From positions 1 through 21,537 of the IMG/VR virus record IMGVR_UViG_3300025128_000404: a stretch of 21,537 nt of DNA; one strand, 5' to 3'. A model generated the notes under the pieces. It saw nothing but the letters and a program-made list of their open reading frames with translations, did not search any database and was not told the DNA's origin. Below, one piece after another: positions 844 to 8,864 of the stretch. Made by a program: the position numbers and the translations under genes. Source of the stretch: a virus. Position 1 is the first letter of the stretch. Each line of letters opens with the position of its first letter.

Positions 844-1218
844 ATGGCAAAGAATAGTGATACGTTTGATTATTCAAAATATCAAGTAAAGTCCGAATTA
901 CAAACACATACTTTAAATATTGAGGAGACAGGAGATTCTTTTGAAGTTACAGTTAAACAACTGTCATGGGTAAAAAGAAATCAACTAGTTTCTAAATGTT
1001 TACAGGTAGGAAGTAAGGGAGAACAGTCATTTGATGGTGATTTATACATTAGAGAATGTTTAAAACAAATGATAGTTGAAGCGCCATGGGGAGCTACAAC
1101 AGAAACATTTTTGCTATCAATTGATGAAAGATTAGGAAAAGCATTAGAATCATTAGTTCCAACAGCTTTTGGAGCAGATGAAGGAGGTGTCTCGCCCGAC
1201 GAAATAAAAAAAGGATAA
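844..1218 (+). CDS. Tail assembly chaperone, short (gpG-like) form
   Basis: This 124-residue zero-frame product is the probable short tail assembly chaperone, which coats the tape measure protein before tail tube polymerisation. The start has a good Shine-Dalgarno (AAAGGAG at about 832-838). The protein is small, acidic and mixed alpha/beta, with no enzymatic motif; its role is inferred from position between the tube and tape measure genes and from the -1 frameshift signal at its end. The last codons are ATA AAA AAA GGA TAA. Lambda gpG and gpGT, and equivalents in most siphophages and myophages, are made this way. Most ribosomes should terminate here and give this short form. Confidence 0.75.
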   Translation: MAKNSDTFDYSKYQVKSELQTHTLNIEETGDSFEVTVKQLSWVKRNQLVSKCLQVGSKGEQSFDGDLYIRECLKQMIVEAPWGATTETFLLSIDERLGKALESLVPTAFGADEGGVSPDEIKKG

Positions 1219-1439
1219 ATTTATTTTTTTTAGATTGGAATAAAGTAAACCCAGACGAAAGATTGGTTTTCAGTCACTGGGCTACAATCTTAAAATTATT
1301 AAAAATAGGTATTTCTTGGGACGCAATACACAGTTTAACTGAAACGGAAATTTATATAATTTTAGCTTTTGAATCAGTTATACAAGATAAACAACATGAA
1401 GAAGAATTAAGACAAATGAGTAAATCAAGATTAACATAG
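844..1439 (+). CDS. Tail assembly chaperone, -1 frameshift fusion (gpGT-like) form
   Basis: Slipping back one base on A AAA AAA (1206-1212) replaces the Gly-stop end by 75 further residues, giving a product of about 198 residues that ends at TAG 1437-1439. The extension begins RINLFFLDWNKVNPDERLVF and ends in a helical, charged segment (EEELRQMSKSRLT). It has no plausible start of its own: the frame has a stop (TGA) at 1179-1181, no ATG until 1416, and no SD-spaced start. Without frameshifting, 1219-1439 would be an unexplained open gap between tightly packed genes. In the lambda system the T extension binds the tube protein while the G part binds the tape measure; the same role is inferred here. 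Confidence 0.75.
1181..1212 (+). promoter_or_regulatory. Programmed -1 frameshift site with SD-like stimulator
   Basis: The slippery heptamer A AAA AAA lies at 1206-1212 in the correct phase (last base of ATA plus two AAA codons), so both tRNAs can re-pair perfectly after a -1 slip. A strong match to the anti-Shine-Dalgarno sequence, AAGGAGGTG (1181-1189), lies 16 bases upstream inside the coding region. Such internal SD sites stimulate -1 frameshifting in E. coli dnaX, although there the spacing is shorter. No strong stem-loop is obvious in the AU-rich downstream sequence. Confidence 0.75.
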
Positions 1440-8168: not shown

Positions 8169-8864
8169 ATGGAAATAAACGATAAATTAGTCCTTCAATG
8201 GGAGCCTAAAATCCAAAAAATGTTATCTACAACAGATATTATTGGTATGGACCGTGAAGACATAGCTCAAGAGCTGAGAATTGCCTTAGTAAAATCTGCT
8301 AAGAAATTTGATGAGACTAAGGGGGTTTTGTTCCACACATATTTACACACATCTTTAGTAAACACCATACGTACGTTAATTACTAAAGCGCAAAGAATAC
8401 CTATCTCAAGAAGTTTAGATGAAACATATGATGGTGATAATTTTCATGTATCATCTAAAATTTTACAGGCTCTTATAAATCCTGTAGACACCTTAGAGGA
8501 AACGGAGATTTCTTTATGGTTAGAAAATCAAGAATTAGAAAATAATGAAAAATATTTTTTAGAACTAAAACTCAAAGGGCTTACGATGGATGAGATTACT
8601 TTAAAGCTTCGACATGAATTTATCAAACGAGTAATGTTTTTTGCTGATTTTTATGATGTTTTTGGTGAAGTTCCTGACACTCTTTTCTTCCAACAATTAG
8701 CAGATAGGATTTTAGAGTTTTATAGTTCATCATATAAAGTTAGAGAAAATATAAAGAATAAAATACTACAAAGATTGGAGACTGAAAATGCCGAGAAGGA
8801 AGAGGCTACGAGGGAAACTGATACAGAAATCCAAGAGCAGGGTGAAGGATTCGCAGCAATTTAG
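8169..8864 (+). CDS. Phage sigma-70-like RNA polymerase sigma factor
   Basis: A 231-residue protein likely to redirect host RNA polymerase to phage promoters. Residues about 26-90 match sigma region 2 (DREDIAQELRIALVKSAKKF, then a T-Y-L-x2-S-L-V-N-T-I-R stretch and KAQRIPISRSLDE). A region-4-like segment is near residues 124-145 (YFLELKLKGLTMDEITLKL), followed by an unusual helical extension and an acidic tail. The ATG has no SD but has its own promoter immediately upstream. The last 77 bases overlap the next gene in another frame. It heads the replication block, so it may drive late or tail genes, or amplify its own block. Region 4 is divergent, so promoter specificity cannot be predicted. 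Confidence 0.75.
   Translation: MEINDKLVLQWEPKIQKMLSTTDIIGMDREDIAQELRIALVKSAKKFDETKGVLFHTYLHTSLVNTIRTLITKAQRIPISRSLDETYDGDNFHVSSKILQALINPVDTLEETEISLWLENQELENNEKYFLELKLKGLTMDEITLKLRHEFIKRVMFFADFYDVFGEVPDTLFFQQLADRILEFYSSSYKVRENIKNKILQRLETENAEKEEATRETDTEIQEQGEGFAAI

Follow-up and report, generated by a model that had tools for sequence, protein, structure and literature searches.

A lambda G/GT-type -1 frameshift predicted in the tail assembly chaperone gene of an uncultivated marine phage family, with varied candidate stimulators

Among described systems, the closest to the locus analysed here is the gpG/gpGT tail chaperone of phage lambda, whose slippery site is G GGA AAG; Xu, Hendrix and Duda reportedly described a wider set of tail chaperone frameshifts in 2004. 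For the chaperones of T4-like phages, termination-reinitiation rather than frameshifting has been proposed. Elsewhere, the IS911 frameshift has a branched structure, and an upstream Shine-Dalgarno (SD) sequence is effective in -1 shifting at spacings of 9-14 nt (PMC5009743) or, according to Sharma et al., 6-17 nt before the second base of the motif (PMC4066793). In E. coli, slippery heptamers that lack a stimulator give shift rates just 2 to 10 times the background, which is about 0.055% (PMC4066793), so some stimulator is expected here if the rate is near that of lambda. Here we consider a 21,537-base viral fragment from IMG/VR (the window, by which we mean this whole stretch of DNA) derived from an uncultivated marine phage, in which the original prediction placed a lambda G/GT-type frameshift with an internal SD-like stimulator. 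The parts of the locus and its two neighbors described below lie on the + strand.

The window has a GC content of 36.8% and carries genes for DNA polymerase A, RecA, DnaB, a DnaG-type primase, a sigma-70 region 2 protein and ribonucleotide reductase, a gene set that points to a bacteriophage as its source. The phage-encoded protein with the sigma-70 region 2 domain lies at 8169-8864 (Pfam E 1.1e-9). Directly 5' of the locus, a gene that is incomplete at the window edge (1-822) encodes a probable tail tube protein, which matches Pfam Phage_tube_2 (E 9e-6, just under the Pfam cut-off) and PHROG 290 (E 5e-7). The 3' neighbor (1454-2245) encodes a 263-aa protein that returned no family match and is, by its place in the gene order, the probable tape measure protein; if it is one, its length implies a short tail.

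Between these genes lies ORF1 (844-1218), whose 124-aa, G-like standard-decoding product is identified by its fold and profile as a tail assembly chaperone. Naming it by direct Pfam or PHROG match was set aside, as these matches, including weak ones to PHROG chaperones, were insufficient by themselves. Searched with Foldseek against a library of viral structures, the ORF1 model (pLDDT 72) matched the chaperone of the haloarchaeal virus HHTV-2 (E 9e-7), two Bacillus phage chaperones (E<=4e-4) and Mu gp41 (E 0.016), and hhalign paired ORF1 with HHTV-2 gp47 at 97% (E 6e-11), the two proteins sharing 29.6% identity; a sequence search of solved structures gave no meaningful match. The -1 frame extension (1212-1439), which would be read after the slip as a T-like domain, is modeled as a compact, all-helical domain (pLDDT 94.9) that found no fold relatives in the viral structure library and, searched by sequence on its own, no matches.

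The putative shift site stands at the end of ORF1, where frame 0 reads the A7 run at 1206-1212 as (AT)A AAA AAA and then GGA TAA, the in-phase heptamer thus being followed after one codon by the stop at 1216-1218, a spacing equal in 45 of the 69 loci introduced below. The -1 frame has a TGA at 1179-1181, is open from 1182 onward to the TAG at 1437-1439, overlaps ORF1 by 37 nt and would yield, after the slip, a fusion of 198 aa. Re-reading of the sequence confirmed the originally predicted coordinates of ORF1, the in-phase A7, the -1 frame and the SD-like element, and bore out the statement that the -1 frame contains no plausible start, its earliest ATG, GTG or TTG being the TTG at 1263, 19 codons past the start of the heptamer. 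Three more in-phase A7 runs occur in genes of the window (1552, 16782 and 18561), so the heptamer alone proves nothing; the one at the shift site rises above chance because it is conserved across loci.

That conservation was assessed in a family of 69 non-redundant loci (<90% nucleotide identity, window included) gathered by searches of viral contigs and divided into a discovery set of 37 loci, which includes the window, and a validation set of 32 more. A scan of genome_contigs found no relative, HHTV-2 was the sole match in the phages collection, and the searches made returned no match to lambda. In 69/69 loci there are two frames arranged in this way and, inside their overlap, a heptamer of the form X XXY YYZ in phase, including the approximately half of the relatives in which the overlap spans only 16-22 nt, and homologues down to about 45% identity retain both frames and a slippery heptamer. 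The heptamer is A AAA AAA in 66 loci and T TTA AAA, A AAA AAC and T TTT TTC in one each, these three all being diverged members; elsewhere in the ORF1s of the family, an in-phase A7 occurs nowhere in 7,994 codons. Fused frames or a non-conserved extension, which the original prediction named as outcomes that would speak against a shift, were found in none of the 69 loci, all of which keep the extension. Where it had called for an alignment of both signal elements, the heptamer proved conserved throughout and the SD-like element was absent from most relatives. The layout, the heptamer and the chaperone fold and profile strongly support a tail-chaperone -1 frameshift of the lambda G/GT type, and from the sequence evidence we regard this programmed shift, of a kind already known, as very probably real, a judgement that covers the frameshift and leaves its stimulator aside.

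Two other routes to the downstream product have to be weighed against the same data. The TAATG stop/start overlap found at the end of ORF1 in 17/69 relatives would suit separate synthesis of ORF2 by termination-reinitiation, with no fusion made; however, the window has no start upstream of the TTG already mentioned, 33/69 loci (window included) have no ATG, GTG or TTG within 12 codons of where the conserved extension starts, an argument against separate initiation, and reinitiation leaves both the conserved in-phase heptamer and its substitutions unexplained, making this route highly improbable. The TAATG of L011, L012, L015, L016, L019 and others has its ATG in the -1 frame, and reinitiation could act there in addition. 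We give still less credence to a fusion mRNA arising by transcriptional slippage, an idea that homopolymer A runs naturally invite (A9 in L129 and L135, A8 in L092) but that sits poorly with the A7 in tandem-slip phase, in runs just 7 long, of 43 of the first 46 loci and with the use of T TTA AAA and A AAA AAC by diverged members; heptamer exchanges that keep the tandem-slip geometry point to slippage of the ribosome rather than of RNA polymerase. With runs of 9, 9 and 8, L129, L135 and L092 are loci in which transcriptional slippage could supplement ribosomal slippage. A +1 shift was also considered and set aside. The ribosomal -1 shift being the preferred reading, the question becomes what stimulates it.

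In most relatives, RNA structure downstream of the heptamer exceeds codon-constrained chance, as judged against a folding null in which the protein sequence and the codon usage of the individual locus are preserved, and this result was replicated in an independent set. Folding in the discovery set peaks directly 3' of the heptamer, where 50-nt segments that begin 10 and 20 nt from its first base give mean z values of -1.35 and -1.34; flanking sequence shows little or none. The validation set of 32 loci gave a mean z of -1.23 for the near region (p 5e-9) and of -1.97 for +4 to +126 (p 9e-15; + positions are counted from the first base past the heptamer), with -0.28 (p 0.07) for a control region. 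A single hairpin common to the family was rejected as the form of this structure, since subgroups differ in their hairpins, a local FL..EEK stem among them, and yield no consensus. One subgroup, picked by amino acids only (Ala in both arms), possesses a 7-bp helix that pairs +8 to +14 (GGCUUUC) with about +107 to +113 (GGAAGCC), exceeds the synonymous null in both sets (discovery, z 6.9; validation, z 4.0), and is maintained by the codon pairs GCU/GAA, GCA/GAU and GCG/GAC. RNAalifold recovered exactly this helix unaided, with compensatory changes, and 0/500 shuffles matched its covariation score. The 5' arm starts 7 nt past the heptamer in every one of the 20 Ala/Ala loci, and the covarying helix, which is common to about 19 loci (L011, at 1720-1845, and about 18 others), closes a domain of about 105 nt. 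Within the open-access literature, this long-range helix appears to be an undescribed type of stimulator for tail chaperones.

The conserved helix is an unexpected result, as is its absence from the window's lineage. The window and its nearest relative, L002, carry Leu-Phe where the subgroup has Ala-Phe, and the 7-bp helix is broken in them; the two are 84% identical over the fusion, and a pattern search for further relatives of this kind found none besides L002. Folding of the window from +4 to +126 is weaker than the null (z +1.24), the near region gives z +1.26 with no hairpin by the Sharma criteria, and only one of the 69 loci has less downstream structure. The earlier remark that no downstream stem is evident thus stands for the window and fails as a description of the family, most of whose members are structured. 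The window's lineage may have lost the helix or may never have had it, the deep branches of the family tree being poorly supported.

The SD-like element of the window, AAGGAGGTG at 1181-1189, is a possible 5' stimulator whose anti-SD pairing (-14.5 kcal/mol) is the strongest among the 69 loci; compared with synonymous recoding, it is not clearly beyond chance (p=0.09). Its spacer to the A7 run is 16 nt, or 18 nt from the GGAGG core (1183-1187), and so lies beyond the 9-14 nt range and at or past the edge of the 6-17 nt range, within which only AGGTG, at 17 nt, falls (PMC4066793). Position-blind SD tests over 4-20 nt were null across the family (p=0.107, and p=0.72 in the validation set), and a position-by-position profile showed an anti-SD excess at spacings of 13-17 nt only. 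At 14-16 nt the enrichment reached p=0.01 in the discovery set, p=0.04 in the validation set and p=0.0025 among the 46 loci that share less than 70% identity. This is a small effect, and the position-specific test followed the position-blind failures and is weaker evidence for that. A comparison of SD conservation at synonymous sites between the window and L002 was uninformative, the two being too alike (88/107 codons identical). For the proposal of an internal SD stimulator the outcome is accordingly mixed, with a mild family enrichment at the window's spacing on one side, and absence from most relatives and a spacer past the optimum on the other; the element is a plausible candidate stimulator in the window.

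Across the 69 loci, SD strength and downstream structure (+4 to +126) trade off weakly (Spearman -0.32, p=0.007; independent contrasts, p=0.017, or p=0.023 minus the window and L002); with a short-range measure of structure in the first 37 loci, the correlation was not significant. This relationship, the rank of the window as first of 69 in SD strength and second in lack of structure, and the enrichment at 14-16 nt in both sets are all consistent with a shift stimulated in this phage by the SD-like element alone, in place of the downstream structure of its relatives. We hold that reading only tentatively, given a spacer of 16-18 nt that falls outside the 9-14 nt range, an enrichment test chosen post hoc, scrambled anti-SDs that themselves reach z -0.9 to -2.0, a locus (L109) that combines a strong SD with a strong stem, and the near identity of the window and L002, which makes them almost one observation. 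Less probable again is stimulation by a weak AU-rich helix formed by 1219-1228 (5' arm) and 1301-1310 (3' arm), near the position of the family helix, with the SD-like sequence incidental to a Glu-Gly-Gly linker. RNAfold assigns this helix a pair probability of about 0.5, L002 carries a 13-bp version of it, and the p value of the SD-like element given its amino acids is compatible with such a linker, but the helix is not better than the synonymous null (p=0.10 and 0.33, and similarly at 15 C), the +4 to +126 region folds more weakly than its null, and AU-rich pairing arises easily by chance at 37% GC. Returning to the SD-like element, the broader proposal that stimulators have been exchanged within the family, such that most members use downstream structure (the covarying helix of about 100 nt in one subgroup) and in the lineage of the window that structure gave way to reliance on an internal SD, placed 16-18 nt upstream, farther than the distances at which SDs are known to work, is in our estimation rather doubtful.

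Under the mechanism that we propose, the majority of ribosomes would end ORF1 at 1216-1218 and release the short chaperone, and a minority, with two tRNA-Lys on A AAA AAA, would slip back one base and continue as ...IKKRINLFFLDW... to make the 198-aa fusion. Its added all-helical domain would be the counterpart of lambda's T; that the fusion is produced, at what rate, and that it joins tape measure and tail tube are inferred. In most relatives, structure in the downstream RNA is the probable determinant of the rate, in one subgroup by way of the +8/~+107 helix, and in the window the strong SD-like element, perhaps together with the AU-rich helix, may be the best remaining candidate, on weak support.

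Set beside known systems, the site resembles E. coli dnaX in its A-rich heptamer decoded by tRNA-Lys and in the SD-like element upstream, and departs from it in that dnaX combines a 3' hairpin with a less distant SD, whereas the window has neither a supported stem nor SD spacing of 9-14 nt. The -1 frameshifts of IS911 and the IS3 family likewise pair a heptamer with stimulators of both the SD and the structural kind, but they serve transposase genes, and in the phage chaperone family the arms of the 7-bp helix lie about 100 nt apart. HHTV-2 gp47/gp48 includes the closest named homologue of ORF1, gp47, yet belongs to an archaeal virus and lacks an X XXY YYZ heptamer where gp47 ends. The present loci extend the tail-chaperone frameshift to a large family of uncultivated marine phages for which the collections searched contain no close relative in culture, and their 69 sites, almost uniform in shift motif and varied in stimulator, allow SD, structure and the limit of SD distance to be compared directly. 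The likeness to lambda gpG/gpGT lies in the adjoining tail tube gene, the short chaperone with its -1 extension and the heptamer directly before the ORF1 stop, and the differences lie in the use of A AAA AAA by the window and in the conserved long-range helix of its relatives; we read the window's site as an ordinary lambda G/GT-type frameshift with an unusual stimulator, and the original prediction, taken as a whole, is partly supported.
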